A stretch of DNA of 64,000 nt from Buxus sempervirens (taxonomy: Eukaryota > Streptophyta > Magnoliopsida > Buxales > Buxaceae), in NCBI GenBank assembly GCA_947561395.2, contig OX387183.1, positions 42,452,901 to 42,516,900 on the forward strand, read 5' to 3'. The notes under the pieces were generated by a model. The model saw only the letters and a program-made list of their open reading frames with translations, had not been told where the DNA came from and made no database searches. The position numbers and the translations under genes are program-made. Shown one piece after another: positions 1,404-59,585 of this stretch. Position 1 is the stretch's first letter. Every line of letters begins with the position of its first letter.

Positions 1404-1886
1404 GGAAGCACCAAAGAAGCCAAGGAAAGCAGAAAATGGAAGGCTCAGGGAGTTTTCAAACTTTTAAAAATGTCACAGTGACGTTCCCCATGAGTTTATA
1501 TAGAAAATTCGAAAAGGCAGTAAAATCCGAAATTATAATACGAGCATGGCGTGCCCGTATAGAGAATATGGACACACTGTGACCGTAAAAAATTTACGGG
1601 CAGAGTGCGCCCATATTAACATTACGGGCACGGCTTGCTCGTATCATAAATACGGTTTCTTCGGAAAAATGCAAAAAAATGGGAAATTTCAATTTTAATG
1701 CTTTCCCAAGTTTCACCTGTCCCTGCTTAAACATGTATCATGCAATAGAAGCAAGATATAAAGAGGAAAAGAGCATAAATGAATAAAAAATGAATCAAAC
1801 TGCTTTTATATATATATATATATATATATGAAGGTGTACATAATTTTGTCAAAATACAAGTACATGAATGAATCCTAATCTAATGT
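1404..1886. other. Spacer between the two antisense genes with a dyad array and (TA)n
   Basis: No coding exon is seen. Five 19-bp dyads of the form CCGTA-N7-TACGG (some degenerate) start at 1526, 1554, 1582, 1610 and 1638, a period of exactly 28 bp. They lie directly upstream of the DUF7745-like gene and are probably part of its promoter. A (TA)n microsatellite sits near 1807-1829, and the 3' end of the PMD gene follows at 1887. Confidence 0.75.
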
Positions 1887-4800
1887 CTATATAGGTCCAC
1901 CCCTACGGCCTCGGCTATGTCCTCTGCCTCAACCTCGGCCTGAAGATCGCCGGCGCTCAAAAACATGCCGCACAATGTTACGGGCTGTACTACAGGTCAT
2001 CCTGCTCAAAACAGACTGAATATCATGCCACATATATAAAGGCACAAGGCCAGCAGTGGGATGATCAGGAGGAACGTACCCTGAAGTATCTACATATCCC
2101 ATAGACTCGGTATCAGAATCCGTAAAGACAGGCTCAGTCGCGGGATCGGCGGCAGCAGGAACAGAAGCCCCACCACAGCAGCATCCCTGGCCGACTCCAT
2201 ATCCATATCAGCAGACACATCAAGAGCGATCTCAGGTGCTGGAGCAAACTCTGGCACATCCTCAGCAGTAGGTGCTATATCGGCCTCGATCTCAGGATCT
2301 GCTGCAGGTGCCTCTACCGATCTAGGAGAAGTCACAAACTCCACCCGTGCCACAGAGAAAACCTCGCCACGAAGGTGCATAGGCACAGATGAAGCAGGTG
2401 AAGAAGGGCCGGCTGTGTCGTCCTGAAAATAAGAAAGGGAATTTTAGTCAAAACAGGATAAGCAGATATAAGAACAAGAATGGAAAGAGGTGAAAGAATT
2501 AACCTGGGTATGAGATGGACCTGCCTGGCCCTGTGCCCTGGCAACCTGTCCCCGGAGGTCTGAAATAGTAATATAGAGGGCGTCCCGCTCGGCAATAGCA
2601 GCATCTCGCTGGCGCTCTATATCAGCGTACCGAGACCGGATCTCTGCCAACTGAGCCTCCTGAAATAGAAGAGAAGGTGTCAGAAAATACCAAGTCAAAA
2701 AGAATATAAGAATGGAAGATCAAAAAGGGGAAGACATACCGTGGTATCATAGGCCCTAATCACTACCCCTCCTATCTCCGTGACTCCGCCATGGACAGGC
2801 ATGGGTGGCAGAGGCACCCAACTGAAGCTCGCCTGAACCATGCATCATAGTCACCCTCCTCCAATAATGTCTCTGCCTCTATCCAATCTAGGAAATGGGC
2901 AGGATCAACAGGCATAGGAGGAAAGGAGGGAGTAGTATCTGGAGGAATGGTAGGAATCCTAGGCTCTCCAACATGCAGATAAAAGAAGCACTCGCCACAG
3001 TACCAGATGCTGCCCATCTGACCAATAAAAAACTGGTATCATTGACGTCTCTGGTCAGGGGCAAAGGCATCATCTCTGGCCGCATGCAGGGCCAACACCT
3101 CATGAATATCCTCCATCCTGGGGATGAACAGCTGAAAAACAGAAAGGGATATTAGACATGTGATCCTGGAAAAGGAAAAAAAAGTAGAATTAAAGCAGCT
3201 TACCTCAGACCGATATAGCCTGTCCAGGTGGGCCCGGGCATACGTAGGACGACTCTTTTCAGAGTCGTGCTCCACATGACACCATCTACGAGCCATGGGA
3301 TATGTCTCCTCTAACATCGTAGAGGTAGGGCGGAAATAGGGTATATAAACCCTAGCAAAGAACTGCAGAAAGAAGAAAAAGGGTCAGAAGAATAGAAAAA
3401 GAGAAAAAGAGAAAGAAGGAGAAGAGAAATAAGTGTTTCACCTGCAGGAAGGGCCGAAAGAATCTGCACCCAACTCCAGCTCCTCGAGAGGTAGAGAGGC
3501 CGTTAACTGACTGGCGCAGACCAGCCAGAATGGTACCAAAAATGAGCGGGCCCCATGCATACCTCCTCGCTCGCTGCAAATCTCCCAATAAGCTCAAAAA
3601 ATGAGGACTGACAGAAGTCGTGTCCTCTGGGAAGAAGTAGGAGCCCATCATATACAGAAAAATGAATCGGAAGGCGAATGGAAAAGCGGGATGACCGGTC
3701 GCAAGCTGTCCAAGCTGCCTCCTCCGGAAAGTCTCTCTCAACCAAGTCAAAGACAATCTCGCTCTCCCTCTATCCCAAGCCTCTGGAGGCAGCACAATGT
3801 AGCCAAGATAAGAGGCGATCTCCTCGGCATCCGACATCACCATATCAGGAATAATATCACCGGTCATCCTAATCCTGGTGATAAGAGTGAAGTCGGACGG
3901 CCGGATCCCAATCTCGACATCTGGAAAGTGGAAACTCAGTGTCTCTGGAAAAAACCTCTCGAGTAGCACTGCAATAAGGGCCCGATCCAGGCGCACATCC
4001 GGAATGGTGATGAAGAGGCCAAAGCCATACAAGCCTAGCTCCCGGCGATAGACTGAACTGCAATCTCCGATAAATCTAATAAAGCTGGCCCAGCTTCCTT
4101 GATAATGAGACATGGGATACTCCAAAGGGATATCTGCCCTAATACACGCTGAGGGATGATTCCTCAAGCCATGCAAAAGATCAGTATCCCTAATCTGGGC
4201 AGCAACCTCCTCAGGGACCTCAACCCTGGTCTTAGCCTTATCTCTGCCACGGCCTCCTCTACGGTCCTCATCATGGCCTCCATCTCTGGCTCTGCTGCGG
4301 CGCCCTCTACGGCTCCTATCTCGGCCTGAAGCCTCAACTGTCGGCTAAGGAAACAATTGGAAGGGAGAAAGAATTAGGGCAATGCATTTTATTAAGGAAT
4401 GTGAAATTTCAGAAAGGTTAGAGTATACCTTTGGGGTCGCCTCACGGGAATCCCCAGAAGGGAGATCTGGGATATCAGAATCGGAATCCCTCTCAGCCCT
4501 CGAAGACGAGGCCACATCAGCATGATCCCGCCGAACCCTCGAGGAGGAGAGCTCATCTGCAGGATCCCTAGAAGATGAACGAATGCGGGCCATCTGCGGT
4601 TCAAATCAGGGAGATGTTTACATTATTCTTGTTACAATTTTCATAGCTTGATTTTTACTTTAACCAAGTTTAATTGATTTGCAAGAAAAAGAAAAAAAAT
4701 GGAAAATGGAAGAAAATACTTCAGGAGCTTCCAATCAAATTAGGAATTATCTGAAGAAGTTTATTTTTCTGTCTTGAGATATTTTATTTGTCCTTGCTTT

Positions 4801-5950: not shown

Positions 5951-6369
5951 AAAATCCTTAAAATCAATACGAGCACCAGGCTTCCGTAAAAGTAATACGG
6001 TCAAATTCTCCCGTGTTTAAATTACAGGTATAACCTGTCTGTAATATCAATACGAGCAAAGCAGGAAATTGCATTTTTCAGGAGATTAATGTTTATATTA
6101 GTTGTAAGTTGCAAGGATTGCCACCTTACCCACTTTTGTTTAAAAATTTTGTCTCAAATCTCACTTCATAGCCACGAGTGCTCAGTGAGACCAGAGAGGA
6201 GGATTTGCCCCTTAAGCTTAGGGACTTTTCAGCAAATCTTCCACACAAATACTTTTTCCAAAATCATACATTTAATCCTTGCAAAATGCAATTAGTTAGA
6301 CAGAGATCTCAAAAAAGTGCAATTGGTGGGTCTTTTTGCTCTCTGCTTGTAATTGGTTCCAATTACCAT
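5951..6369. promoter_or_regulatory. Dyad array upstream of the PMD gene; 3' end of element internal region
   Basis: Four 19-bp dyads start at 5955, 5983, 6010 and 6038 (period 27-28 bp); the best is tccgtaaaagtaatacggt. They abut the start of the PMD leader exon. The rest (6060-6369) is non-coding and ends at the purine tract of the element. Confidence 0.65.
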
Positions 6370-6384: not shown

Positions 6385-6488
6385 TGTAGACACCCCAAAT
6401 TGCACTACAAAATGAGAAAATAATGAAAACATGTAATTGGGATTTAAAATAGGCTAAAAATGCATAAAAATCAATAATTTAAGCCTTG

Positions 6489-6562
6489 CCCGTATTGTCT
6501 TTACGGTCTGGCGCGCCCGGATTTTGTATACGGACACCACTTGCCCGTAATACATTTACGGG
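6489..6562 (+). promoter_or_regulatory. Dyad array in the LTR (three 19-bp units)
   Basis: Units start at 6489, 6516 and 6544. The third, cccgtaatacatttacggg, is a perfect 7-bp inverted repeat. The array is about 200 bp upstream of the TATA box. Confidence 0.75.
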
Positions 6563-6763
6563 CACATTAGATTTGTGCGAGTTTTATCCTTTCTCGATTT
6601 CTGAGCCTTATCTTCAGTCTAATATCTCTTTAAATGAGTGAATTATATCTTTTATTCGTTCGGATTATCCTTGTTGGCCATGGATGGGCATTATCCTTGT
6701 GTTTAATTCAATCTGAAACTCTATCTTGCCAAACCTTGGACCAACCATGCCCCTGGGTTTGCC

Positions 6764-6771
6764 TATAAATA
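6764..6771 (+). promoter_or_regulatory. TATA box of the Ogre LTR
   Basis: TATAAATA within GCCTATAAATAGAGGGC. The same context occurs at 36850, 46609 and 39241 in related LTRs. A donor-like CAG/GTAAGT follows about 100 nt downstream at 6868. Confidence 0.75.
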
Positions 6772-6934
6772 GAGGGCTTCTCCTTAAACAAAATGCCATG
6801 AAAATTTGAAGTCCAAGGAGCTCCAAGTGAAGAGAGGAATCCCTGCTGCTCTGCTTGCTCAATCCAGGTAAGTCCCTTTTCCCTTTTATTTTCTGTCTTC
6901 AATTCTAGAGATAATAGGATCTTCTCCATTGCTA

Positions 6935-7219
6935 TAGAATAAGGCCATCTTTTATTATGTATTCCTAAACTTGTCTTTAAGTACCTCAAGAGTCTCTCTA
7001 GCCGTAAAACGTGAAGAGAGAGCTAGGGGAAAAGAGAACAGGTGGATCCCTAGAATAGAACCTCATATATGTTTTTCTCCTTTTTTCTAGAATAAGGCCT
7101 CTGATTGTGTTTGTGTACCCAAACCTATCTCCAAGTACCTCAAGAATCCTCTCTAGCCGTAAAACGTGAAGAGAGAGCTAGGGGAAAAGAGAACAGGTGG
7201 ATCCGTAGGGTAGACCCCC
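6935..7219 (+). repeat. Tandem duplication of about 153 bp in the Ogre LTR
   Basis: TAGAATAAGG starts at 6935 and again at 7088. Both units contain AGCCGTAAAACGTGAAGAGA and GCTAGGGGAAAAG, with inverted CTAGC/GCTAG and CTCTCT/AGAGAG. The solo LTR at 36443 and the split LTR at 46202 have the same duplication, so it is ancestral to the family. Confidence 0.8.
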
Positions 7220-8154
7220 TGTAAGACACTGATTATTTTGTGGGGTTACCCATGGTTTATTCATTCTGTTAATATACATAAACTGTGTTTATCAGGTGTT
7301 TAGTGTGGTTTGAGGGCTTAGCCCATGCTCGTATGTACAGGCGTTATGTAGCCAATTTTTCAGAAAAATATTTATATTTATCGTACGATTTTTATTGTAT
7401 GGTGTCTACGTATTTATCAATTTAATTAAGATGTCGATGCCGCGAGCATGTGAGGTTTTGGTGGGCGAGCGCGCATCGGATAAGAGAAAAAAAAAAGATA
7501 TGCATCCAACGGCGTATTTCTCGTAGGGTAAAAATGGGTAAAATTTTCCGAAGGGGGAAAGTAGGGTTTGGGTTGTAGGGATACGCGTAAGTTACAGAGG
7601 AAATCTTCATTGGAGTTAGAGCTGTGGCGACTGCGGCGGAAATGGCGATTGGGGTTATTCTCAGGGAGAGAAAGAGTCTGAGGAACTACTAGAAGCTCTT
7701 TCGAGTGGGATTTAGGCGGGTTTTCTCTCTCCTGAGCAGCGAACAGTTCGACTAACATTTAGGCTACCATTTCGTCTTCGCGCATTCGGGATCGCGATCG
7801 GCCGACTTCGAGGACGACTACCATTCTGGGATTATCGCGCACACGAGTGAGTGGCATTGTTTTACCACCGAGGTTTTCGGATTTATTCGTATATGCATTG
7901 AATGAATATCATGGTATTGAATTGCATGAATGTTGGGGTTTTCTGGGAAACACAGTTACGAAGGGTTTTAGTTACGGAGGGTTTTCGTTTTGCACAGTGA
8001 AATTGGGGATAACTGGGAAGTCATTTAGATTAAATTCAAAATTGGTTTGGATGTATCCTGGGAATATTAGGGGGCCATATAAGTGGTCACAGACTGAAAA
8101 ATTACAGCCAGAGTTGGATTTCCGGCATTAACAGAGACCTGTAAATCGAACTGG

Positions 8155-8405
8155 GTTACCGCCTAGCTACCGCCTACCTAGCGCCCACCTAGGAGGTGAG
8201 CGCTAAGAAAAGCAGACCTGGCGCCTAGCTAGCGCCCATCTCGCGCCTAGCTGGCGCCTACCTCCAATCCTCGCGCTTATCTCGCGCTTTTCTCCCGCCT
8301 GTCTGGCGCTTAGCTAGCGCCTACTCATCCACGGGTGAGCGCAAGCTAAGATTTATCAAGGGGACCTACCGCCTACCTGGCGCCCACCTCGGGAAGTGAG
8401 CGCCC
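8155..8405 (+). repeat. GCGC-rich repeats in LTR F
   Basis: Many short copies of gcgcctagctagcgccca-like and tagcgcccacctaggaggtg motifs, partly self-complementary. GC content is well above the flanks. Confidence 0.7.
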
Positions 8406-8734
8406 AGTGGTTTTTCATACAGAATCCTAAATTTCGGAAGAGCCAAGGGTGCTCTGGACAATAGGGGTTCTTCAACCATTCAACCAACAAATAGAATTCG
8501 ACATTAGAGGCAGTAAATATTACTGGGAAGAACAATGTAGATAGGTACTAGTTTTAGTACAAGCTTATGAGGTAGGTGCGGAGAAATATTTCGAGGATGT
8601 TCGGAATGTTCACATATTAGTGCTTTATTCTAGTCCTCTTGAAAACATGCATTGCTTGGTACCTTATTTGGTTTATCGAACCCTGTTTGATGGAAAGTTT
8701 GAATGAGGTTGTAATTATTGTGCAGTTGATTACT

Positions 8735-8850
8735 TGTGTGAGTTTCTGTTCTGGTTGGAACACTTGTGTGAATTTCTGTTCTGGTTGGAACACTTGTGTG
8801 AGTTTCTGTTCTGGTTGGAACACTTGCGTGAGTTGATGTTCTGGTTGGAA
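8735..8850 (+). repeat. 30-bp direct repeats in LTR F
   Basis: About four copies of a 30-bp unit containing GAGTTTCTGTTCTGGTTGGA followed by ACACTTGTGT, adjacent and without spacers. Confidence 0.85.
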
Positions 8851-9009
8851 CCACGGGTGATGTGTACTAATGCAGAGTTTTAAGCAATTAATTATCGGTT
8901 TGGGTTTAGCTTCCCATGGATCCTTGTTTAAGCTTAGTAATGTGATGGTATGTGTTGGTTGGTGTAATTGCATGGCCACGTGTGTTGCCACGACCAGTGT
9001 AGAGCAGCC

Positions 9010-9125
9010 AGATACCCTGAGTAGGCCTGGTTGTCAGTGCCGATACCCGGAGTAGGCCGGCACTGGATGACGATACCCTGAGTAGGCCGTCATTTCAGAG
9101 TTTCCGATACCCTGAGTAGGCCGGG
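9010..9125 (+). repeat. GATACCCTGAGTAGGCC repeats in LTR F
   Basis: Four interspersed copies of GATACC(C)TGAGTAGGCC, each separated by a variable 15-25 bp segment that starts and ends with related bases, such as ccggcactgga. Confidence 0.75.
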
Positions 9126-9307
9126 AACTGTGTACATGGAGGTGTGGAGTGTCTACTTGGCGTGTAAATTAATCAATGTAACCATATGCATGGCATTGAC
9201 CCGGTTTGAGTTGTTATCGAAATTTACGCGGTTATTATCATTGGTTATTTGTTGAAGCATGTCTTATAACTGTGTTAACTATTTTATGCATGCATGTGTC
9301 ACTCGCT

Positions 9308-9350
9308 GGGATATTCGTATCTCATTCCCTCGTTGTTACTTGTTTTTCAG
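9308..9350 (+). promoter_or_regulatory. Tetraloop hairpin plus acceptor-like site in LTR F
   Basis: GGGATATTCGTATCTC (9308-9323) folds as a 6-bp stem with a UUCG loop (one G-U pair). It is followed by TGTTTTTCAG ending at 9350, 23 nt before the LTR end. Confidence 0.65.
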
Positions 9351-10328
9351 ATACTCGTGGTGAGGTGCCTACACCCCCATGTGCTCAAATCTGTGAGATG
9401 TGGCTGTTTTGAATATCCTGATCATATTTTAATGGTTTTTTTATGTTGAATCTGAATGAATCATATGAATGCATGATGTTTATAGCATGAAATCCTCTTT
9501 TTCTCGTAAAATTGAGATTTTCACAACTTTTGCACCTATAGCACTATTTTTGTGATTTTTGGGATATTAGACTAAGATCCTGGATCTATCATGATCAGTA
9601 TGATAGATCTAGATTCAGAAGCCTGAAAGTAATTTCTAGGGTTTCATGATGTGGTTTTTGAGTTGTTTTTCATGTTTGAGAGAAGACCCTACGGTCTAAG
9701 TTCTCCCCTTTTTTATGTTCTTCATCAACGTGGGTATTTTTTGTTTTGATTTTTTGATTTAATGTGAAATTTGGGCTATATCTATGTCCTGGACTGTTCA
9801 GGTTCAATTCTGCAATATTTCATAAAAATCATATTTTTTCTAGATTTCTAGAATTTAACTTGAAGCCAGATTTTTTGAAGTTTTCACTTTATTTTGGTTC
9901 TATTTGATTTTATCTCAATTTTGTTTTAATCATGAAATCCTAGGAATGGTATGATCATATTTGAAAGTTTTGGATCAATCAGGCTATTCGTATGAAAAAA
10001 AACCATACACTTTTGTCTTTTTGTGATTTTTCATGATTTTTGTAGCAAGCCCTTTTTCCTTTATTTTAACATGAACAATACCTGACAACCACCTTGTGTG
10101 GATGAATATGGGTGCTTAATACCTTCCCCTATTCATAACCTAATCCCCTTACCCATCTCTGGTTGTTTTTTTTAGAGGGTTATTTTTACCCTAAATTTGC
10201 CTTTTTGTGCTTATTTGATATTTTGGTGTCCATTCACATATAAATAGAATGGTGGCGACTCTGTGTTTTTAACCAATCCCGTGTGATGATGAGGAAGTCA
10301 TTGAATTGATTTTTTCCCATGTCTCACA

Positions 10329-11203
10329 AGTATTAAGCTTTAATACCCCATCAAGGGGTTTTATCCATCTTATAAATCTGGACTGTTTAGTAGATTGTCT
10401 TTGGGTAGAATTGGAGCAAATTTAGAGCTATTGAATTGACCCAATTACCATGGTTCCAAGAGGGTCTTGACACTGATAATTTAGAGCTATACATGTTAAA
10501 TTCATTTTAAGCTATCAAACTAAAATTTACAGTTTACATCATTTTACAAACACCGCAAAACTTCCTGGAATATTTTTTAAAAAACCGTTTAAAACAACGG
10601 ATTAATTCTCAATTTTCATAATCAGAACTCAAAGAACTTCGGAAGAACTAAACTGTATGGATTGATAACATCATATAGATATAATTACACCATTTAATGT
10701 ACTTTAAATCAAAGTAAATGATGACTTGCAGAATTCTTGCAACTTCTACAACTGTAACCAACCAATCGAATAGAAGAACAACTCAATCTAGAAGAAATAA
10801 GCAGCTTATTTCTCCTCTCTCCTCTCTCTCCTCTCCCCTTTCTCTTCTTCCTCTTCCTTCTTCTTCCCTCTTCTTCCCTTCTTTACACTTTTTCTCTCCT
10901 CTTGCTCTCTCTTCTTCTATTCGATTTCATGAACATTCATGAAACCGTCCCATAGAAATCAACTACCCAACCTAATAAAACCAACCCAAATTTAACCAAA
11001 ACAAACCACTTATTCAAATCTAACCAAACCAACTGAACCAACCCAAAATAAACTAAATTAAATCAAACTAATTAGAACAATTATTTTAGTAAACATACTT
11101 AAAATAAAATTAATGCAATAAATTTCTCAATAATTAATAGAAAATTCCTAATTATCTCAAATACATAAAAAAGCACAAAACTTCTAGGTTTTGGGATGTT
11201 ACA
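10329..11203 (-). mobile_element. Probable truncated LTR (family G) and flank
   Basis: On the minus strand the sequence starting at 11203 reads TGTAACATCCCAAAACCTAG, a typical Ty3 LTR start, followed by AT-rich sequence and a GA-rich leader-like tract (10800-10920). No matching target duplication was found at either end, and the inner boundary near 10474 is a guess. Bases 10329-10473 hold nothing I recognise. Confidence 0.4.
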
Positions 11204-11224
11204 AAATTTATTTATATATATGTG

Positions 11225-14200
11225 TACCATCATGGGATCATGGAAATCGCCTAGCTATCTCTTAAATACCACACAGGATTAAACAAAAGAGGAATCAACA
11301 CCATCCATGAGTCTTGGTGTTGATGGACACCAATATGTGCATAAAAGAACAAAATCGAGTTACAGTAGCTCTAATTTATGGTCTAGTCCAGAGATAGGGT
11401 AAGGGGGTTAAGTTATAAGCAGGGGAAATTGTTAGGCACTCCTACTCATCCATACAAGATGGTTGCCATATGCTTATCATGCTACAAGATTGCTTCCACA
11501 TAGAAATCATTAGAAAATAAACAAAAAGGAAGAAAACATATGTGTGATTCTCCACATGAGTGGTCCAATTAATTCTGAACTCTCTGTGTAGATACATCAC
11601 TCCCAAGACATCTTGCTCAATCCAAAAATGCAAGGTAAAAATCAAGGATAAAAGGATTAAAAAAATTTTGGAAAATTAATACAATAAAAAGCCATTAGAG
11701 CTATGCACACTCAATGGATCATAACTCAGTCATTTCAAATTCAAATTGAGTGAAACTAAAGCCATTTGAAAGCTTATCAGATGCATAAAGCTCAGTAAAC
11801 ATTTCATTTAAATCCGATTAAAAAACAAGAGAGTTATGCTCATTCAAATTTGTTGGTCTGTCACAATGACAGTGATGACCAGTCCTACTTCCCAAGCCTA
11901 TTCGTGGAATTTGGCTCTATATAAATCCATGAAAATTGGTATGAATGAAGTATGAAACACCATCTTTCGAATGACATGGGTCTCAACCCGTAGTTCATCC
12001 ATATGAAGTCTATGTGTGCTTGCAAACATAGCATCTCAGTCATAGATTAACCCTATTAACTGCTAATTAGCAGAATAAGGTCAATCAAGCACAAAAACCT
12101 CAATTAAGATTGAAAAATCATGAAACCACTTGGATTTGAAAATAGACTCATAAAGAAAGACTCAAAAATCAAAATCACTCAAATTGAAGTTAAAATGAGC
12201 CTTTGGTGCTCAATTAAAATGATAGGTACAACAAACTGTGTACATCTGACTTGTCAGCTTTTATCTAAAGGTGTGAGCAATTGGCTGGGAGAAAACTTAT
12301 GAAATTTCACAGGATTAAAATGTACTTCCTCAGTTTTCAACCACAACTAGTTTGATTCAAAAATTCCTTCAGAGGATCAAGAAATGAATGAAGCAATTTG
12401 AGGTAGAGGTTCTGCCTAGATTTGGAAAAGAAGAGTGAAACCAATTCAAAATCAGTTGATCTATGCAATTGGCTCATTAAATCAACTTAAAACATCTAAA
12501 AATTGAATAATAAAATCATAGAAACATCTTGGGTAGACATTTGGTTCAAACCTCTCATTATTTGGAGGGTGAGAACCAAGATAGGCCATATTCCTTTGAA
12601 AATTGTTTAGATCTCAGGAGATCTGGCCATAAGGCCTTATCCAAGAGAATAAAACCAACTAAAAAGTATCAAAAGAGTCTTGAGATCTTGATTTAAGGCT
12701 CAATATATTCTTAGATCTACCATATTTAGCATGGTAGATCTGCCTAGAATTAAAGAAAAAACGAAGTGTGTGTATGCTTGAACAAAGTGTGTAGAAATCC
12801 AACAATATGGAGAGATTCTAAATCAATTACTAAGGAGTAGCATAGATCCATAGAATTCTTCTCACTTTGAAGTATAAAAGCACATAACAACAATCAAATA
12901 CAAAAGATAAGCAAATCAAACATATAGTATATCAAATGGGTTCTAAACCTATGGATCCATCCCATAGCTTGTTTCCCCTAGCTCTCTCTTCACGTTTTAC
13001 GGCTCGAGAGGGGCTTAATGTACTTTAAACTATCATTTGGGGCTACAAACACAAGGATTCCTTATTCTACAGAAAGGTAGAAGGAGAGAGTACTGGAATT
13101 GAAAGAAAAGTAAAGAGAAAGGATAGAGAATTACCTTAAGTGTCTTGGAAGCTTGAGTAGAGAGTTGGGCAGAGTTTCCCTTCTTCTTTAAGAGCTCTAG
13201 AGCATCAAAATTCAAGCTCTATCCTAAATGAGAGACCCTCTATTTAAAGGTAAGAGGAGGAGCAAGAAAGTCTCAAGGGTAGATACAAAAATGTGTCTAG
13301 ATCCTTCTAATTCAAGCCTATTGCATGAATTGGGGGAAATTTGATCAATTTTGGACGTTAAATTTGGGGAATTTGAGCCTTCCAGAGAGGTTGCATGGTA
13401 AATAAGTGAAAGCTCGTGGGAATTTTCAAATTGAACAAATTTACTCATAACCAAAAATTCAGTTCGGCTACAAACAAAACCCTTTATAACCGAAATATAA
13501 TTTCAGTCATACATATAACACTTCATGACCGAAATTGAATTTCGATCATACATAAAACTCTTCATGATAGAAATTCAATTCCGGTCTTATATATATCACT
13601 CATGACCGAAATTGAAGTTCGGTTACACATTACATTTAGTTTGACTGAACTGAGTTTTTGGTTAAGGGCAGAAAAGACTGTTTGCACAGCTTCTGTATAG
13701 CCATGACCCTTATCTGCACAGACAATACTTATTACATGTAATATCATTTAAGTAAATGTCCTCATATTTTTTAATCTCCATTTACTTAAGATATTACATG
13801 TAAATAAGCAAACACCCCTCCCCTCATTTGAATCCATTAAAAATAGTTCCAGACCCAAATTCCAAATGAATAAAAAGTCAACTTTCCAATTCAAGGCTAA
13901 ATTCCGGTTTTTTAAGTCTGGTAAAAAAGTTCAACATGTTAATGCTAAGGTATTTGTCAAAAATTAAAGGCTCAAAAAATTCATTTATGCAATAACATTG
14001 CTAAAAACCTGATTACTGAGAAAATTATCTTGAAATCTTGTCTTAAAAAAATATTTCATTTTTTGGGTCAAAAGTCAACTGGAAAAATTTGACTTTGCAT
14101 AAAAGATTGAATTCAAGCATTTTCCTCTGTGGTTTTGGACTCAAATGGGTCAACAATCTCGAACCCAATGCTAAGAATTGAAAATTCCAATAAGATTTTT

Positions 14201-46201: not shown

Positions 46202-46305
46202 TGTAGACACCCCAAATTGCACTACAGAATGAGAAAGTAAGAAAAACATGTAATTAGAGCTTAAAACAGGTCAAAAATGCATAAAAATTGACTAAGCAGG
46301 CTTTG

Positions 46306-46608: not shown

Positions 46609-46715
46609 TATAAATAAAGGTGAGATTCTCAAGCTAAGGGCCACGAAAATTTGAAGTCTAAGAAGCTCCAAGAGAAGAAGAGGAACCCCTGCTGCTTTTC
46701 TTGCTCAATCCAGGT
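46609..46715 (+). promoter_or_regulatory. TATA box and donor-like site of the Ogre 5' LTR
   Basis: TATAAATA at 46609-46616; CAATCCAG/GTAAGTCCC with GT at 46714. A matching acceptor-like TTTTGTATCCAG ends at 60342, upstream of gag. Confidence 0.6.
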
Positions 46716-46886
46716 AAGTCCCTTTTCCCTTTTATTTTCTGTCTTCAATTCTAGAAGTAATAGGATCATCTCTATTGCTGTAGAATAACGCCATCTTTTG
46801 TATCTAGTATTCCTAAACTTGTCTCTAAGTACCTCAAGAGTCTCTCTAGCCGTAAAACGTGAAGAGAGAGCTAGGGGAAAAGAGAA

Positions 46887-47920: not shown

Positions 47921-47934
47921 ATCTCCCCCTTGGC
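47921..47934 (-). other. Polypurine tract of the SIRE-type element
   Basis: On the minus strand GCCAAGGGGGAGAT directly precedes the LTR. Near copies lie at 48169-48180 (TAAGGGGGAGAT) and 48403-48414 (AAAGGGGGAGAA, at the end of the extra ORF). Confidence 0.85.
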
Positions 47935-48392
47935 AAATGCCTGACAACAACCTTACATCAGATTTTAAAATCAACCTTAGTTAATGATGATATCCATTCA
48001 AGAAATTTAAAACTACACTGTTAACCAGAGACACAGTGATTTGGATTAATCCAGAGTTTCATTCATTTACAACCAGATATACAGATAACAAAATCATTTA
48101 CATTGTTCAAGAAAGACAGACAGCAAGAAAGAAGGACAAACAGACATTAAGAAAGAAAGACAGACATTATCTCCCCCTTACTTATCATTCCCTTATACAA
48201 AAAAAATTCAGGAGACAACACCCAGAACAGACCATAACAAAACAACCATCATATCCACAACAAGAATAACATCACCAAACATCAAGCAAACAACAGAATT
48301 CGAAACAACAGCAGCAGCAAGCAGCAGACAACAACCAGCACATCAGCATCAGCACCAACCCAGCCAAACCATCAGCAGAACCAGAGACTGCA
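47935..48392 (-). other. 3' untranslated part of the SIRE-type element
   Basis: Non-coding. Low-complexity AAGAAAGACAGACA and AGCAGCAGCAAGCAG tracts, plus extra purine-tract copies. Confidence 0.7.
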
Positions 48393-49712: not shown

Positions 49713-49757
49713 GGTAAAAGAAATGGAAGAGAAAGAGAAAACAGACAGACCAACCAA

Positions 49758-50889
49758 CTAAACGAGAAAGCCCTAAGTGCTGAAAAAACTACTAAACCCT
49801 AGCTTCGAATAAAGAGAGAAAACTACAGAACTAGGAAGCAGAAAAAATGGAGAAGCAGGACGAAGATGGTAAAAAAAATTACCTGAACAGTGGACAGGAA
49901 GGAAGAAGATGACAACGACAGTAGCACCGGGACATGACGCGAGAAGCGAGGGAAAAGCGAAGAGGGTGAAAATAACAGGGGTAAAAAGAATAGCTCACGT
50001 TCACCTATATATAGACAAACTCAAATACGCTGCCAGCGGGCAACTGGCGGCGTAGAAGGTGCACATGCACAAACAACAAAAACTACAGATTCAATGCATA
50101 AACTTATAAAAAAGGATTGAACAATTTTTCATGACATCCTCCTACTTCTAAACACGAAGCTGAGATTTTAGCTAAACCCAAAAATCATCCAGATAATCAA
50201 CTTATTCAATCTAAGAAGTACTTAGCACAAAACTGATCTTGAAGTACCTATCAGAGTTAATTCAGATGTGGTACATTTCATATCAAAGAGTAAAATTTCA
50301 TTTCTGGTTTCTCATACTATAAATTTTCTTCAAGATATTAAGAACATATGCATACTAATGAGTCAATGCTTGTGAGAAATGAGCAACATTTTTGACTTTT
50401 ACACTTCATACATATAGAAGACTATTTCAGTGTAAACAATCTTGAAAAGTATAGACATATCCCAACTTCATTTTGGTGGCTTTCGCACATCTGAGATAGG
50501 TAGCCTTTTCTGATCTCTTTTTCTTTTTAAAGAAGGCATTGACCCTTAAAAAACCTGAGTTTACAGTTCATTCCAAGAATATACCTTCTCTATCTTTTTC
50601 TTTTTGAGATTTACAGTGGCTTTCACTCTAATCTCTATGGCAACCATTTCCAAAACTTTTCTTTTCACAAAGGTGATAGCCTATAGATCCCAAGCTTTAC
50701 CACACAATAAGCTTCAATACGTACAGGTGTTTCAGACAAAGTTGCTGGTCAGAAATAAGACATTTCTGTCAATATGCATACACTCAATCTTCCTGAAAAC
50801 AGATCTTAGTAATAAGAACACACAAATTCATTTTAAACAGATATGTGAGACATTTTACATCAAAATTAACTCAAAACAGAACCTGATTT
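49758..50889 (-). promoter_or_regulatory. Spacer between pol and the extra ORF with a promoter-like segment
   Basis: On the minus strand CGCTGGCAGCG (about 50025-50035), a motif repeated in the LTR, lies just upstream of CTATATATAG (50005-50014), about 290 nt before the preferred ATG. A consensus-like donor CTGTTCAG/GTAATT follows near 49883. The rest (50060-50889) is AT-rich with nothing recognised. Confidence 0.5.
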
Positions 50890-53800
50890 TCAGTTTTGAG
50901 AGCATACTCCTAGGGATTTCCTAAGAGTTTCAAATCTGTTTTGATCTAAAGGTTTGGTAAAAATGTCAGCCAACTGTTTTTCAGTAGATATGTATTCAAT
51001 CATAACAGTTTTGTCTTCAATCAACTCTCTTATAAAGTGATGCCTGATATCTATATGTTTGGTCCTTGAGTGTTGAACAGGATTCTTAGAGATATTTATG
51101 GCACTTTGATTATCACAGAAGAGAATCATTTGATCTTGATCTATCCCATAATCTGATAACATTTGTTTCATCCAAATAAGTTGAGTACAACTGCTTCCTG
51201 CAGCAATATACTCAGCTTCAGCAGTACTCAGAGAAACACAGTTTTGTTTCTTGCTTAACCAGGCAATAAGATTATTTCCCATGTAAAAGCAACCACCAGA
51301 GGTGCTTTTTCTGTCATCCATACACCCAGCCCAATCAGCATCAGTGTATCCAGTTAGATGTGGATTTGTCTCTTTGGAAAACCAGATTCCCAGATCAATA
51401 GTCCCATTAACATATTTTATAATCCTTTTGACAGCATTCAGATGGGATTCTTTAGGATTAGCCTGATATCTAGCACATACTCCAACACTAAAACTTATAT
51501 CAGGTCTACTTGCTGTTAAGTATAGTAGACTCCCAATCATTCCCCTGTACAGGGTAGGGTCTACAACCTTTCCAGATTCATCTTTTCCAAGTCTTAAACT
51601 AGTACTCATAGGAGTCCTAGCATGTTTAGCATGAGTTAAGCTGAATCTCTTAACAAGATTTCTTGAATATTTTGCTTGAGAGAAAAAAATTCCTTGTTGA
51701 GATTGATAAATCTGAAGACCTAAGAAAAAATTCAGTTCACCCATCATACTCATTTCAAATTCACTTTTCATTAAATCAGCAAAGAGGTGAGCATGATTTT
51801 CAGAAGTGGACCCAAACACAATGTCATCAACATAGATTTGAGCAATCAAAATATGTTTGGACTCTCTTTGAATAAAGAGAGTTTTATCTACATTTCCTCT
51901 CATAAAACCAGATTCAAGTAAAAAGAAAGTAAGTCTCTCATACCAAGCTCTAGGAGCTTGTTTGAGTCCATACAAAGCTTTGTTCAGTTTATAGACATAT
52001 TTAGGATGATTTGTGTCCTCAAATCCTTTAGGTTGCTCTACATAGACCTCTTCACTCAGATATCCATTCAAAAATGCACTCTTAACATCCATTTGAAATA
52101 GTTTGAACTTCAAGTAACATGCAATAGACAGCAGTAATCTGATTGATTCTAACCTAGCTACAGGAGCAAAGGTTTCATCAAAATCTATTCCTTCTACTTG
52201 AGTATACCCCTGAGCAACAAGCCTAGCCTTATTTCTGGTTACTATCCCATTCTCATCAGATTTGTTTTTAAAAATCCACTTGGTTCCTATCACATTCAGA
52301 TTTGAGGGTCTTTCAACCAATTCCCAAACATTATTTCTAGTAAATTGATTCAGTTCTTCATGCATAGCATTCAACCAAGAATCATCTAACAATGCATCTT
52401 TATAAGATTTTGGCTCAAATTGAGAGAGATAAGAAGAAAATCTTACCTCATTATGTACCTGATGTCTTGTTCTTACACCATCTGAAATATTTCCAACAAT
52501 TTGCTCAGTTGGGTGGTCTTTGAGAGTTCTAGCCAGAGGAACCACTTCAATGCTTGAGGAAGCATCTCTGATTTCATCCTCTTCATCTACAGCCTGCATA
52601 AATTCACTGTCATTACTTTCATCATCTATTAGCACATTAATAGATTCCATTACAACTGATTTCTGCAAATTGAAAACTCTGTAAGCTCTACTAGAAGAAG
52701 AATATCCTAGAAAAATTCCTTCATCACTTCTAGAATCAAATTTTCCTAGATTTTCTCTGTCCCTTAAGATATAGCATTTACTTCCAAATACTCTGAAATA
52801 TTTCAAATTTGGCTGTTTTCCTTTCCAAAGTTCATAGGGAGTTTGTTTCCATCCAGATCTGATATAAACTCTGTTACTGATGTAACAGGCAGTGTTTATA
52901 GCTTCAGCCCAGAATTTTGTTGAAATTTTCTTGGCTATCATCATGGTTCTAGCCATTTCTTGTAAAACTCTGTTCTTCCTCTCCACAACTCCATTTTGTT
53001 GTGGGGTCTTAGGGGCAGAAAATTCATGTTTGATTCCATGTTCTTCACAGAAATTGGAAAACATTTGATTCTCAAATTCTGTCCCATGGTCAGATCTGAT
53101 TCTTACAATCTTTCCTATTTGCAAGTTCTTTTCAACTTGAATTTGGCAGCACAGATGTTTAAAACAATTGAAACATTCAGATTTTTCTCTTAGAAAGTCT
53201 ACCCAAGTATATCTGCTGTAGTCATCTACTGCAACAAATATATATTTCTTTCCTCCCAGACTTTCAGTCTTTGTAGGTCCCATTAAATCCATATGAATCA
53301 GTTCTAATGGTCTTGATGTTCCTACAATGTTGGTTTTCTTATGTATGGCTTTGATTTGCTTTCCTTGGTTGCAAGGACCACACATTCCTTCCTTTTTATT
53401 TTTCCCAAACTTGGGAATTCCTCTAACCAGCTCAGACTTAGAGATTTTTGACAAATCTCTGTAGTTAATGTGGCCAAGTCTTCTATGCCACAAATCAATT
53501 TCATTGCCTATGGAGGATTTTAAAGAGCACTCACTGTTTCCAATAATCCCATAGCAATTATCACTTGTTCTTTCACCTACAAGAACAGTCCTACCAGATT
53601 TATCCAGTATTTTGCACTCTTTTCTGGTAAAATTAACAAATAATCTGGAATCACATAATTGGCTAATACTGATAAGATTTGCCTTCAAACCAGATACAAA
53701 TAGAACATTTTTTAAGCAGACTCCATTTGGACCTGTAACAGTTCCTTTACCTTTAACTTGGGAAGTGCTTCCATCACCAAATGTAACACTTCCACCAAAA

Positions 53801-55854
53801 TATTCTTCAAAGGTACTGAACATAGCCTTACTACCACACATGTGTCTTGAACACCCACTGTCCAAGTACCACATGTTGACATCATGAGCTTTTAAAGCTA
53901 CATGAACCACATTAGCAACCAATGAATCTTTTCTTACCCAAATCTGTTTCTCAGAAGTCTTCTGAACAGTACCTTCATCAACTACTTGAGTTTTTGAAGG
54001 AAGTTTCTTGGACAAATTTGAGACTTCCTGATTTAATGTTTCAGTCAATTTTAACAGAGAGTCAAATCTGTTGTATAAGTCCAGGGACTGACTTTGATTT
54101 ACCTTTCTCTTATTTTCAAAATATCCATCAGGGAAACCATACAATGCATAACACTTTGGTCTTATATGACCCTTCTTATTGCAGTGATGGCATACAGGTA
54201 TAAATCTATTTTCAGAAAAATCAGAATTTCTAGACTTGCCAGCATTTCTAAACTGTACAGATTTAGATTTCTCAGAAGTTGAAGATTTACCTGTTGATCT
54301 TACTTCTCCAGCAGAGATTTTCTGTGAATATTCCTTGTTTTGATTACTTACTCTCATTCTTTTTCCAGCTGAATTTGAGCTTTCAGGAACTTCCTTTGAA
54401 GTTGATTCCTCAGTACTTTGAAGATTTTCTGCAGAAGAATTTGAAGCATTAGATTTACTTGAATTTGAAACTTTCTCAAATTCAATTACTTTACCTTGTA
54501 GTTCAGAAATCTGAGCTTCCTTTTCTTTTATTTTTTCAGTTTTTTCAATTAGAGAAGTTACCAGAGAATTTTCTTTAGCATGTTTTTCAAGTAACTTCTG
54601 GTTTATTGAATCTATTTCTGCAAGAGCTTTCTTATTCTCTGTTTCTGATTCCTTCAATTTTTTACTCAGTTTCTTGATTTTTTTCTGAGCTCTATTGAAT
54701 TCCTTATAGAGCTGATTGTATGCTTCTTGTAGTTCTTCTTCATCATCTGATAAAGCCTCTTTGTTATCTCCTGCAATTCCAGAAATTGAACTACCAGAGG
54801 AGGATGAGTAAAAAGAATTGAAAGCAGTAAAATTAGCAGACATATCCTCATCAGATTGTGAAGAATTATCAGTGTTACTGTCATCCCAAGTAACCTGATA
54901 ATTAGTCTTTTTCTTTTTATCTTTTGAGGGACAATCAGAGGCAACATGTCCAAATCCTCTACATTTGTAACATTGAACCTCATCATTCTGAGAAGATTTC
55001 TTCTCCTTTCTTGGATCAGACATTTTCTTATCAGATCTCCTATTAGATCTGTCCATGGATGATGAAGAATTGAATTGTTTCTTTTTAAACATTTTCTTAA
55101 ATTTTTTGGCTAAGAGAACAAGTTCATCCATATCAACATCAGAATTATCTGATTCTACAGTATTTACAGATTTTACAGAATTTAGAGCTATTCCTTTATT
55201 TCTTTTTGGAATAATCAGATCTAGCTCATAAGTCTGTAAAGATCCTACCAGATCTTCAATTCTCATATTATCTACATCTTTTGCCTCTTGTATAGCAGTT
55301 ACTTTAGGTCTGAATCTTTCAGGCAAAGATCTTAAGATTTTTCTAATCACCTTTGATGTAGTAATCTTTTCTCCAAGATTAAAACTAGAATTAACAATAT
55401 CTGAGAGTTTAGCATAAAACTCATCAAAAGACTCATCATCTTTCATATACAAAGTTTCGAAAGATGTAGTAAGTCTCTGAAGTCTGGACAGCTTGACAGC
55501 TGAGGTTCCTTCATGAGTGACCTCTAGGATGTCCCAAGCTTCCTTAGCGACTTCACATGAGGAAATTCTCCTGAATTCCTCAACACTAACAGCACAAAAT
55601 AAGGCATTCATTGCCTTGTTATTCCATCCACATTGATCAGATTCAGTTTTAGTCCACTGATCATGAGGTTTGGAAATCACAACACCTACATCTGTTGTGA
55701 TCACAGGTGGATGATAACCATTACAAACCGAGAGCCAGACACGCTCATCGATTGACTTCAGATAAGCTCTCATTCTAGCTTTCCAGTAAGAATAATTGTT
55801 ACCTTCAAATAAAGGAGGTCTAGAGGCAGATCCTCCTTCTTTTCCAAAATCCAT
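50890..55854 (-). CDS. Gag-pol polyprotein of a SIRE-type Ty1/copia element
   Basis: An intact 1654-aa ORF. In order: copia gag N-terminus ([16 protein letters not shown]), zinc knuckle [14 protein letters not shown] (about 294), a long coiled coil (about 370-460), a second knuckle [14 protein letters not shown] (about 553), protease [13 protein letters not shown] (about 660), pre-integrase HRRLGH (about 790), integrase with HMDLMGP and VVERKNR (about 855-956), reverse transcriptase with [12 protein letters not shown] and YVDDIVFG (about 1178-1400, active-site DD near 1340), and RNase H ([17 protein letters not shown]; about 1508-1650). All catalytic motifs are present. The start is the first ATG, only 47 nt after the primer site. 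Two knuckles around a coiled coil plus a downstream ORF point to the SIRE/Maximus lineage. Probably still able to move. Confidence 0.96.
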
Positions 55855-55901
55855 GCTATAGATCTAGATCACACTATGTATAGCAATTCAAAGTGAATAG
55901 T

Positions 55902-55912
55902 CTCTGATACCA
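55902..55912 (-). other. Primer-binding site of the SIRE-type element
   Basis: On the minus strand TGGTATCAGAG lies two bases inside the LTR, the usual initiator-Met tRNA site. Confidence 0.9.
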
Positions 55913-55914
55913 CT

Positions 55915-56948
55915 TGTAAGAGTAGAGGACTACTCTTAAGGTCCACGATCTATAACAATTCAGAATTTAACAATTGCGGAAACAGTACACAAAGAATTAT
56001 ACGAGGAAACCTGGATCCAGATCCAGGAAAAACCTCGAGTCTATATGAGGCGACTAACCCTTCAAAATCCACTATTGAATGAGAAGACAATTACAAAGGA
56101 GAACATACTTAACCTTTACAATTTGACTCAATCAACAGCAATCCACAGTTCGAATCCACGAACTGCTATACAGCTTGAATCACCAAGCTGCAGAACACGA
56201 TCAGTCCAGATCGCAAACAATCACTCTCCAGTGATCCACAGTTCGAATCCACGAACTGCAACACAGCTTGAATCCACAAGCTGCAGGACACGATCAATCC
56301 AGATCGCAGCAATCCTCTCAGAATCCACTGAGACGATCCAATGCATTAGGAATCCACCTACGCATCAATCAAGGTCGATCACCAGTCCAGGCGATCACAC
56401 GATCGGATGAAGTTCTGAATTGAAGAAGAATCCTCTACCTTCAATTCCAGGTGATCTATCTCAGATCTCCCCCTCACTCAATCGCCGACTCTCTAAAGAC
56501 GATTTGATCGAATCTCGAATCTCTCAAGATCCGAATTCAAAAACGATCCAAAGAAAAATCAGAATTAAAAATTACAACTCGTCTATTTAAAGAATAAAAC
56601 ACACATCGCGTCGAGCGCTGGTAGCGTCGTGAAGCGATCGAAGTAGACGGCTGGTAGCGAACTCATGTCCCGCTCAGATTGAGTTGAGTCTGTTAAACGC
56701 GCGCTGCTAGCGAGCTGTTAGCGGGAGAGTACGCGGCAGGTGCACTATCCATGCTTTTGACACACGAAAATCCTTATGCGCTGCCAGCGGGGTGGCAGCG
56801 GCGTGGTAGCAGTGTGGTGGCACCAACTTCTTCTTCTTTACTGAAATTTCTGAATTTTCATTGTTTAATCTGCACATCTTGAAGCTTCATTAGAAACATA
56901 ATTTGTCAATCATTTGCCATACCAGGAGTGTGAGTTTTCACACTTACA
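55915..56948 (-). mobile_element. 5' LTR of the SIRE-type element
   Basis: Next to the primer site. A TATA-like TTTAAATAG on the minus strand (56583-56591) would start transcription toward gag. The 121-aa ORF in both LTRs is on the opposite strand and is not taken as a gene. Confidence 0.92.
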
Positions 56949-58071
56949 GAGAACATGTGGATCCCTAGAATAGAACCCCATATCTGTTTTTCTCCTTTTT
57001 TTTAGAATAAAGCCTCTGATTGTGTTTGTATACCTAAACCTATCTCCAAGTACCTCAAGAGTCTCTCTAGCCGTAAAACGTGAAGAGAGAGCTAGGGGAA
57101 AAGAGAACAGGTGGATCCGTAGGGTAGACCCCCATGTGCTCAAATCTGTGAGATGTGGCTGCTTTGAATATCTTGATCATGTTTTAATTGCTTTTTATGA
57201 TGAATTTGAATGAATAAGATGAGTCTATGATGTTTATAGCATGAGATCCCCACTTTTTTATAAAATTTGGATTTTTCACATATTTACACCTACAGCACTG
57301 TTTTCGTGATTTTTGTGGTTTTAGGCTAAGATCTTGGATTTATCATGATCAATATGGTAGATCTGAATCCAATAGTCTGAAAATAAATTCTATGGTTTCA
57401 TGAGATGGTTTTTAAATCCTTTGTCATTATTGAGAGAAGACCCTACGGTCTCAGTTCTCCCCTTTTGATGTTTTTATCAATGTGGGTATTTTTGGTTTTG
57501 CTTTTCAGATTTAATGTGAAATTTGAGCTTTATCTATGTCCTGGATGATTCAAGTTCAATTTTGAAATATTTTATAAAAATCATATTTTTCTAGATTTCT
57601 AGAATTTAACTTGAAGCCAGATTTTTAGATTTTTCACTTTAAATTGATTTTATCTCTACTTTATTTTGATCATGAAACCCTAGGAATTGTATGATCATAT
57701 TTGAAAGGTCTGGATCAATCAGACTATTCATATGAAAAAACCATATATTTTTGTCTTTTTGTGATTTTTCCTGATTTTTATAGCAAGCCTTTTCCTTTAA
57801 TTTAACATGAACAATACCTGGCAACCACCTTGTGTGGATGAATAGGGGTGCCTAACACCTTCCCCTGTTCATAACATAATCCCCTTACCCATCTCTGGTT
57901 GTTTTTTTTAGGAGGGTTATTTTTACCCTAAAATTGCCTTTTGTGCTTATTTAATATTTTGGTGTCCATTCACACCTAAATTGAATGGTGGCGACTCTTT
58001 GTTTAATTTAATCCCGCGTGATGATAGAGGAAGTCAATTGGATTTTCTGATTTTTTCCCATGTCTCACAAC

Positions 58072-58090
58072 TGGCGACTCTGCAGGGGAG
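58072..58090 (+). other. Primer-binding-like site of the Ogre element
   Basis: TGGCGACTCTGCAGGGGAG, two bases after the LTR end CTCACA. The primer tRNA was not identified. Confidence 0.7.
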
Positions 58091-59585
58091 TCAAGGATTT
58101 GAGCCTTTTGGTGTTTTAGTTCATGTTTTTGATATTTTTGGATTTGCTTGCTATTTTGTGTTCTTAAGCATGTTGGGTATGTTTTAAATCTGAATTATTG
58201 CTTAAGAATTCATGGGGGTAGAAACATGTTTAATTTTGATTTATAGGATTGTTTCTACAAACATGCGTAGGGGAGGTTCGTTTTGCTGAACCATGTTTAT
58301 TTCTTGCTATATTTTTATGATAGCTTGTTTTAATTTTCAGCATGATCTCCATGATGCGTTTTTGGGTGTATAACATGATCATATGTTTGTATGATTAGAT
58401 GATTTTTTTTATGAGCATGTTTTAGGTGCTATAGGATTGGTTGTGTATTTGTTTACTTTAAATATGCTTTCATATTATGCCTTGGTTTGTTTATGCATGG
58501 CTACGAAAAGAGTGGCAAGGGTTTGGGACGTTGTGAATGCACCCTATTTTTACAATGCACTGTGCACATTTTATTTTTTTACACAGCCTACCCTTAACCT
58601 ATAGGAAGTTGAACCCGAATGTGTGTAGCTTGGCGCAACGAGGTCGATACTTCGGAAAGCGAAAGTGAAAACATTCACCTTAGAACTTTGAGCTAATGAT
58701 ATGATGATAACGTGGATCTGGGATTCTGGTCATCACTAGGCTTGAGTGCTAAGTTGCCATTAAGCCAAAACCCAAAACCACTACGCTTGAAGGTGGAGTT
58801 ACACGTTTTTGGCTAAAGTACACAATTACGTGGGGATATGGGCTTGTAATTGTGGGAAGGCCGTGTGCATGGCATACAAACCAGGGCATAATGAGGATGC
58901 CATGTTGAAGGTAAACAAGGTAACAAGGTAATCTTATTGTTTTGCATTATTTTCATGTCATAGGGGTGTCATGGTGCCCATTGGTTTGGGATAAAATTGG
59001 TCCCAAAATATGCATGTTTCCAAAATTGGTGCAGCCCATAGGAAGAGTTTCTAACTCTGTTTAGAATCAATCCTGTCCAATGTTTGTACAAGAGGCAATA
59101 AAAGGGTACCAAAGTATGAGTATCGTGTCAATTTGGAGGGTACGTGTGCCCTCCTAAGCATGTGTTTTGCAAATAGGTCAAGGTCCACTTTGGGACAGTT
59201 TAGAAGCTCTGCAATGGGTGAACCGTATGTTTGGATGAGCAATCAAAGTGATCAAACCATGTAAAAACTGAAAAAACATAAAATAGCTCCATAAAACCGC
59301 ATTTAGTACACGGGCTGGGCTCGCCCGTATTGGTTATACGGGCTAAGCTCGCCCGTGTTGGTCATACGGTCACGGCTTGCTCGTAATATGAACACGGGCA
59401 TGCCGGACCGTGGTGAATATACGGTTTTCTCGGAGGATTTAACTTTAATCAGTTTTGCCCACTAAAATCTTCCTTTAACCTTTAAATAATGATAAAGGGA
59501 AACAAGTTTGAATAAAATGCTTCAAAAAAAAAAAACAACAAAAAAAAAAAAAACAAAATAATTGAATAAAAAAAATGTGAGAGAA
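58091..59585 (+). other. Ogre leader with a dyad array
   Basis: Non-coding; no ORF1 upstream of gag. Five dyads start at 59296, 59324, 59352, 59380 and 59407 (best: cccgtattggttatacggg). An A-rich tract with C interruptions lies at 59525-59575. Confidence 0.7.

Follow-up and report, generated by a model that had tools for sequence, protein, structure and literature searches.

Why should one short palindromic motif stand in regular arrays both at the long terminal repeats (LTRs) of retrotransposons and beside genes that run antisense to them? The question is raised by a stretch of 64 kb of the Buxus sempervirens genome (contig OX387183.1, positions 42,452,901 to 42,516,900), here called the window, which self-comparison and LTR starts showed to be filled with nested LTR elements. 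The arrays consist of dyads, CCGNA-N7-TNCGG, in elements that we sorted into families A, B, C, D and F (names coined in this analysis). In families A and D they recur at four places per element, namely the U3, the gag leader and the two antisense genes. On balance, we favour the reading that the dyads are control arrays bound by a two-fold symmetric protein, which would couple sense and antisense output and would most economically be encoded by the element itself. Coordinates are those of the window unless a locus is named, and the assembly searched for genome-wide counts comprises 676.5 Mb. The window contains three Tat/Ogre-like LTRs of family A, delimited in the same way, and the features on which the argument turns are the following (arrays are given without strand):

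693..1403, minus strand: first exon of antisense gene 1, DUF7745/plant mobile domain (PMD; Pfam)
1497..1502, minus strand: putative TATA box of antisense gene 1, placed by sequence, between array and ATG
1526..1656: array upstream of antisense gene 1, five dyads of the CCGTA type in 28-bp steps
3352..4176, minus strand: PMD exon of antisense gene 2 (Pfam)
5955..6056: array given to antisense gene 2 by position, four dyads in steps of 28, 27 and 28 bp
6385..10333, plus strand: family-A LTR, the 3' LTR of the left element, with an insertion at about 7222-9369
6489..6562: U3 array of three dyads, before a TATA box at 6764
24638..24712: cluster of three dyads with mixed T and C arms, about 700 bp 5' of a family-B LTR
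36443..38248, plus strand: solo family-A LTR with an apparent 5-bp target duplication
36546..36648: U3 array of four dyads, before a TATA box at 36850
46202..58070, plus strand: right family-A element, 5' LTR in two parts around a young copia element (46887-56948)
46306..46407: U3 array of four dyads, before a TATA box at 46609
59296..59425: gag-leader array of five dyads
60306..61556, plus strand: gag (Pfam Retrotrans_gag)

Dyads in the window

An initial annotation had described seven dyad clusters in the window and had judged that chance would hardly yield their phasing. All seven clusters were confirmed with their coordinates, although two further LTR families with other arms had been missed: ACCGCA/TGCGGT at 25518-25595 and 39021 (family B), and ACCGAA/TTCGGT at 13451-13661, 21215 and 23607-23701, in 39-bp steps (family C). 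The exact pattern occurs 18 times in the window, where 60 dinucleotide shuffles give 0.15 on average. When one mismatch is tolerated, there are 36 sites versus 5.8 expected, a number reached in none of 100 shuffles, and 15 pairs of these sites lie 27-29 bp apart, compared to none in the shuffles. Little excess is left with two mismatches (135 sites versus 95); three of the four units at 5955-6056 carry two mismatches. These shuffles, together with the reversed-pattern and 6-bp-centre controls given below, rule out pure chance or base composition as the source of the dyads.

The sites are, moreover, confined to certain elements. Thirty-three of the 36 sites with at most one mismatch fall within 4.0% of the window, at Tat/Ogre-like LTRs or beside antisense genes, in compartments that were defined after the sites had been seen. 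Four stretches of other window sequence, 31,150 bp in all (a copia element, another LTR element, another repeat and a purine-permease region), contained no exact dyad and a single one with up to one mismatch, so that a presence in elements of every type is ruled out. The permease of the last region, at 16735, shares about 50% identity with proteins of Macleaya, Papaver, Magnolia, Coptis and Aristolochia. Repeated perfect dyads, irrespective of sequence, were also searched for in the window and in 20 evenly placed 10-kb samples (200 kb; 11 on contig C1 and 9 on C3). The matches listed were mostly of family D, with some of A and B, and the rest consisted of an inverted repeat of 90 bp near 18300, of minisatellites and of several isolated pairs; one mononucleotide shuffle per source contained none. 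The double-dyad pattern was not found in viral contigs.

The arrays in other copies of the elements

Other copies of gene 1, of the leader and of the family-D gene 2 were found with queries lacking dyads. A first look gave 5706 gene-1 candidates in the genome, 150 of which were scored, and 20 copies were taken at about every seventh match. Four or five dyads (up to 2 mismatches) were present in 18 of these 20 promoters, in a register of 140, 168, 196, 224 and 252 bp from the ATG, kept within a base or two. With up to one mismatch, the mean was 3.48 dyads per sequence, the window included, against 0.06 in mononucleotide shuffles. In the leader, the query ended 37 bp before the first dyad, and all 15 copies fetched, out of 39 other listed matches, had 4-5 dyads at 28-bp steps (up to 3 mismatches of 10), a threshold at which three dyads were reached in 9 of 300 shuffles. 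For gene 2, one or two dyads lie at the expected distance in 18 of 20 family-D copies. On the family-A gene-2 side, where stretches were located through their distance to LTRs, themselves found with a dyad-containing query, each of six LTRs preceded by an internal 3' end has four dyads in steps of 28, 27 and 28 bp; among eight LTRs of unestablished flank, three carry this array and five are without it, as expected of 5' or solo LTRs. The U3 set comprised the three window LTRs and 20 of 39 other matches to a query that contained the array, so that presence here is not independent; 22 of the 23 have three or four units (up to 3 mismatches), the exception being L037, with two units and a damaged third.

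The same layout was seen along five full-length family-D elements, chosen by eye among the first 100 sites listed, with U3 clusters at 0 and +20.1-20.7 kb, leader clusters at +3.7-3.9 kb, gene-1 promoter clusters at +14.9-15.6 kb and, in three of the five (exact sites), a gene-2-side cluster at +19.5-19.8 kb. Arrays are thus present at the antisense gene promoters of most other copies. As a separate observation, the gene-1 unit at 196 bp from the ATG (about 1582-1600 in the window) has changed in both arms to CCGTG-N7-CACGG in many copies, with one-sided intermediates in others.

The position of the arrays relative to putative promoters is also regular. The TATA box of gene 1 (minus strand, from 1502) follows the array by about 23 bp in family A, and by about 13 bp in family D (L016, about 5086). 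As claimed in the initial annotation, the clusters in LTRs precede the TATA box, with 202 bp from array end to box in the three family-A LTRs and about 17 bp in L011, whose LTR is unlike family A. The transcription start sites themselves are predicted. The idea that sense and antisense promoters share one adjacent control element is in this way well supported, by the same places in other copies and by the gene-1 TATA box downstream of the array. That clusters lie just upstream of both antisense genes was found for gene 1, and for gene 2 by position only: the array at 5955-6056 is about 1.8 kb upstream of the gene-2 PMD exon, to which it would belong by its location.

A fixed centre and family-specific arms

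The centre of the dyad had been described as constant, which holds for its length and fails for its sequence. The pattern CCGTA-N7-TACGGGC occurs 17,113 and 17,061 times genome-wide, versus 27 and 26 for its reversed form; this count pools all families with the arm and includes each fully symmetric unit once per strand. When the centre is shortened to 6 bp, counts fall to 21 and 26 (control, 16 and 21), near background. In the 20 samples, matched-arm CCGxA dyads numbered 17 at centre 7, two at centre 3 and none at centres 4-6 and 8-15, while unmatched-arm dyads numbered three at centre 7 and up to five at other centres. Given these genome counts (made for centres 6 and 7) and sampled counts, the 7-bp centre is nearly absolute, centre 8 being judged from the samples only.

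Four Tat/Ogre-like LTR families share the frame CCG...CGG with the 7-bp centre. The fourth base is T, C, A and G in families A, B, C and D, respectively, and the partner base follows symmetrically. Genome-wide counts against the reversed patterns were 5763 versus 5 for family B, 2240 versus 81 for family C and 28,399 versus 5 for family D; a further family F (TCCGCA/TGCGGA, from locus L024) gave 1003 versus 1. The family-D motif, obtained from the samples, is TATCCGG-N9-CCGGATA, mostly CCGG[A/T]-N7-[A/T]CCGG, in 39-bp steps. Dyads change between families within sequence that is otherwise well kept: from the gene-2-side array to the LTR, families A and F are 84% identical over 316 bp, yet their dyads differ, and the leaders of A and D are 81% identical over about 460-490 bp, yet the dyad type has changed. 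No PMD exon was found in the F element, and its gene-2-side array is therefore matched by position only. Between families, this contrast of dyad with neighbour is stronger than that of arm with flank among copies. The families B and C are represented in the window by the following features:

about 13.7-11.2 kb, minus strand: family-C LTR, ends approximate
13450..13662: family-C array of CCGAA-N7-TTCGG dyads in 39-bp steps, preceding a TATA-like box of the minus-strand LTR
21091-21258 and 23603-23740: family-C LTR fragment in two halves
21215..21231: family-C dyad in the first half of the fragment
23607..23701: family-C dyads in the second half of the fragment
25403..25654, plus strand: first part of the family-B LTR, which another LTR element (about 25655-38917) interrupts
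25517..25596: family-B array, CCGCA-N7-TGCGG, steps of 38 and 23 bp
about 38917-41081: family-B LTR, continuation, TATA box at 39241; a homologue with both parts lies in locus L089
39020..39038: family-B dyad in the LTR continuation

The family-B LTR (25403-41081), with another LTR element inserted in its dyad region, seemingly has internal sequence on both sides, as from unequal recombination, with primer-site-like sequence after 41081 and a purine tract before 25403. The copia element at 46887-56948 is young (LTRs 99.9% identical) and has after pol an extra open reading frame (ORF; 48393-49757, minus strand) that matches Transposase_32 (PF20167).

Several features of the arrays themselves can be added. 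The steps of families D and C (39 bp) exceed that of family A (28 bp) by 11 bp, roughly a full helical turn, so that the rotation from one dyad to the next is almost equal in both cases (at 10.5 bp per turn, 240 degrees for 28 bp and 257 degrees for 39 bp); the 23-bp step of family B, found next to one of 38 bp, does not fit this pattern. CCGTA dyads in LTR-like promoters unlike family A occur at loci L001-L008 and L011:2925-3135, many with self-complementary centres (CTTCAAG, TTTGAAA). A second dyad minisatellite is present in leaders, with 10 exact CTGAAA-GCCTTTGAA-TTTCAG units of invariant centre in family A (59590-60165) and 12 TTGATTGG...CCAATCAA units in family D (L013:5245-6196); these are possibly RNA hairpins.

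The antisense genes as candidate readers

A second RNase H is a mark of the Tat/Ogre lineage. Families A and D carry gypsy-type gag and reverse transcriptase, RNase H and integrase ORFs. In the family-D locus L016 (LTR start at 164, minus strand), the pol ORF (7873-9921, minus strand) matches RT_RNaseH and, separately, RVT_3/RNase_H, and two PMD ORFs (2270-3250 and 5110-6030, plus strand) lie between pol and the 3' LTR, as in that lineage. By its second RNase H and antisense ORFs, judged from domain matches and position, this locus is Tat/Ogre-like. Pfam assigns the antisense exons to PMD and DUF7745; TRP28 (PF04195) was not among the matches (E <= 0.01) in a scan that covered part of the ORFs. 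Internal stops are absent in 104 of 150 scored gene-1 matches and in 107 of 123 gene-2 matches. In the protein collection searched, gene 1 had no homologues and gene 2 one weak match.

Between families A and D, gene 1 is best kept at 79% amino-acid identity, followed by the G-patch ORF (73-74%), gag (67%) and ORF2 (60%), and gene 2 is the most diverged of these comparisons (53.5% over 256 residues, one sequence per family). Gene 2, being the fastest-changing, as expected of a protein that changes its target, is for us the first candidate reader and gene 1 the second: a candidate, no more. The family-D exon of gene 2 starts with an RG-rich stretch.

How could such a system work? A symmetric protein would contact CCG on each side of the spacer (a CCG-N11-CGG core) and read the adjacent bases as a family signature. 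Since the same arrays stand at the U3, the leader and the two antisense genes, a single protein would determine both sense and antisense output. The element itself would be the most economical source of this protein, which probably diverges by family, and the outcome would be a circuit of self-recognition, each family reading the dyad of its own type. The initial annotation had guessed at a DNA-binding protein of two-fold symmetry, a prediction that fits the strict centre length and the DNA-like pattern of substitutions described below. Protein binding, activation rather than repression, and the identity of the protein are inferred, as is the link of one array to gene 2. The more specific proposal, that an antisense-encoded PMD protein binds the family-specific CCGNA-N7-TNCGG arrays of its own promoter, of the other antisense gene, of the leader and of the sense U3, and that protein and sites have co-diverged into several mutually blind families within one genome, we put forward tentatively, as something that may well turn out otherwise.

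Conservation of the arms and competing explanations

The arms had been expected to be more conserved than their surroundings across copies. In the pooled set (leader, U3 and gene-1 promoter, the latter with 19 sequences after omission of two copies without a full array), majority agreement outside CpGs was 0.940 for arms, 0.842 for centres and 0.868 for linkers, and in each of the three sets the arms are ahead of the centres and linkers of their own arrays. The expectation thus holds within the arrays; against the flanks it holds slightly in the pool and not in the U3.

Some of the results weigh against control arrays read by an element-encoded protein. Outside CpGs the arms are barely above the pooled flanks (0.919), in the U3 they have no advantage (0.928 versus 0.934), and pairwise identity is about equal for arms and flanks (leader, 0.914 and 0.910; U3, 0.878 and 0.889). 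A clear TATA box was looked for at the leader and gene-2-side arrays and none was evident. Among the 20 gene-1 promoters, L054 retains one dyad and L063 none. Pfam recognised no DNA-binding domain in either antisense exon, no relatives of solved structure were found by sequence, and the apparent co-variation of protein and site comes from one A exon compared with one D exon. LTRs that do not resemble family A (loci L003 and L011) contain CCGTA dyads as well, a presence that a host factor would explain too. Finally, B/C hybrid dyads are rare (40 and 31 genome-wide; control, 12 and 6), which indicates separate lineages with symmetric arms and does not by itself prove selection.

The most serious competitor, which we regard as rather unlikely, is that the dyads are read by a family of host transcription factors with affinity for palindromes of the CCG-N11-CGG kind. 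The elements would recruit these factors, and the element families would have drifted among variants that different paralogues of the host bind. Besides the CCGTA dyads shared by family A and by LTRs unlike it, this explanation can call on the palindromic CGG-CCG boxes of Sireviruses, compared with host factor sites by the authors in the passages concerned (PMC2829016). However, families A and D keep one main symmetric arm type at all positions examined, B/C hybrids are rare and a single host factor would have no need of several signatures in one genome.

A role in silencing seems improbable. The arrays would in that case be nucleation points for small RNAs or methylation, or anti-silencing targets without promoter function. 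CCG and CGG are CG and CHG sites, and each arm contains a CpG. More arm CpGs are kept than in pooled flanks (424/485 versus 220/306), but the difference comes mainly from the gene-1 promoter (163/187 versus 58/114); flanks keep slightly more in the leader (143/160 versus 30/32), and the U3 gave 118/138 for arms and 132/160 for flanks. The short tandem motifs in non-coding regions targeted by VANC proteins, as described in the relevant parts of PMC5735166, would also be in line with silencing, whereas the promoter-like register and the proximity of TATA boxes fit transcription control.

More improbable still are RNA hairpins acting in packaging, export or stability of the genomic RNA. All four positions would be in sense-transcribed RNA, and arms co-vary between families as the pairs of a stem would. 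The 127 distinct family-A units, however, show 119 one-sided changes (22 of them transversions) versus nine both-sided ones, six of which repeat a single A-T to G-C change at one unit of the gene-1 promoter. Regarding wobble in the sense RNA, one-sided transitions are neutral (46 compatible, 51 incompatible). The innermost pair has changed on both sides in seven units versus 1.9 expected, an excess absent from the other four pairs, and in the U3 the fourth left base is variable (T34/A6/G7/C4) with A as its partner in 49 of 51. Substitutions fit mainly the CpG decay of double-stranded sites and not the conservation of a stem; the hairpin reading is disfavoured by the wobble test, even if one pair does show the paired-change excess.

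Least probable of all, non-functional minisatellites, palindromic by accident and spread by slippage and retrotransposition, would agree with units that duplicate and swap (three or four units, exchanged centres) and with U3 arms no more conserved than flanks, but not with arms that agree between units whereas centres and linkers differ, with a centre length fixed across families, or with the same placement at four non-coding places.

Known systems and meaning

For control arrays read by an element-encoded protein, the closest parallels are Sirevirus boxes for the cis sites, VANC for a proven reader, and Retand and Grande for the genes. The RM boxes of Sireviruses (Ty1/copia) are described, in the passages on them, as palindromic CGG-CCG motifs in many copies, of element-specific sequence, located upstream of the LTR TATA box and before env (Bousios et al. 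2010, PMC2829016). The dyads share with them the palindromic form and the C/G core, as well as the clustering ahead of the LTR TATA box and a second occurrence in front of an extra gene. In contrast, the core here is CCG-N11-CGG (A, B, C and F) with the fixed 7-bp centre, where RM boxes mostly have little or no centre; family D also contains CGG-N9-CCG, but in the same fixed geometry, unlike the short-spacer Sirevirus core. The Citrus Sirevirus box AATCCGGCTWRCCGGATT (PMC2829016, Table 3) has, by our own reading, arms like those of family D and a centre of 4. Moreover, the carriers are gypsy-type and not copia, the window copia element lacks an exact dyad, and the extra gene is a sense env in Sireviruses versus two antisense genes here.

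VANC target arrays of VANDAL elements (MULE) are made of YAGTATTAY motifs in the same orientation, for which an element-encoded reader has been proven, according to the sections on these targets (Hosaka et al. 2017, PMC5735166; on anti-silencing arrays see also the corresponding parts of PMC10398659 and PMC13317346). Like them, our arrays are short tandem motifs in non-coding regions, family-specific and quickly diverging; unlike them, the dyads are palindromic and belong to an LTR retrotransposon, the VANC motif being non-palindromic and that of a DNA transposon. VANC is not known to be a PMD/DUF7745 protein, PMD and DUF7745 being the Pfam matches of the antisense exons here; the two were compared by description only. 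A circuit built on an antisense PMD protein would, by analogy, be both retroviral-Tat-like and VANC-like within an LTR retrotransposon, a possibility to which we give somewhat less than even credence.

As for the genes, the TRP28 ORFs of Retand and gene23 of maize Grande, the latter with its own promoter, are antisense, lie between pol and the 3' LTR and have been proposed as regulators (PMC11963269, PMC7264820). The antisense ORFs reported here share that position, but their domain is PMD/DUF7745 and not the TRP28 of Retand. The passages concerned in both accounts contain no dyad array, and no description of Tat/Ogre dyads of this type was found among the titles and abstract openings listed in a literature search that covered few subscription papers.

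Antisense genes are common in the Tat group with no function assigned, and the regulatory role published for them is "likely", no target being named in the passages concerned (PMC11963269, PMC7264820). The arrays provide a target site for which controls of specificity, five arm types in one genome, are already at hand. If the reader is indeed encoded by the element, this would be a case of family-specific self-control in LTR retrotransposons, parallel to that of VANC in DNA transposons, and would help to explain how tens of thousands of sites have spread through one plant genome.

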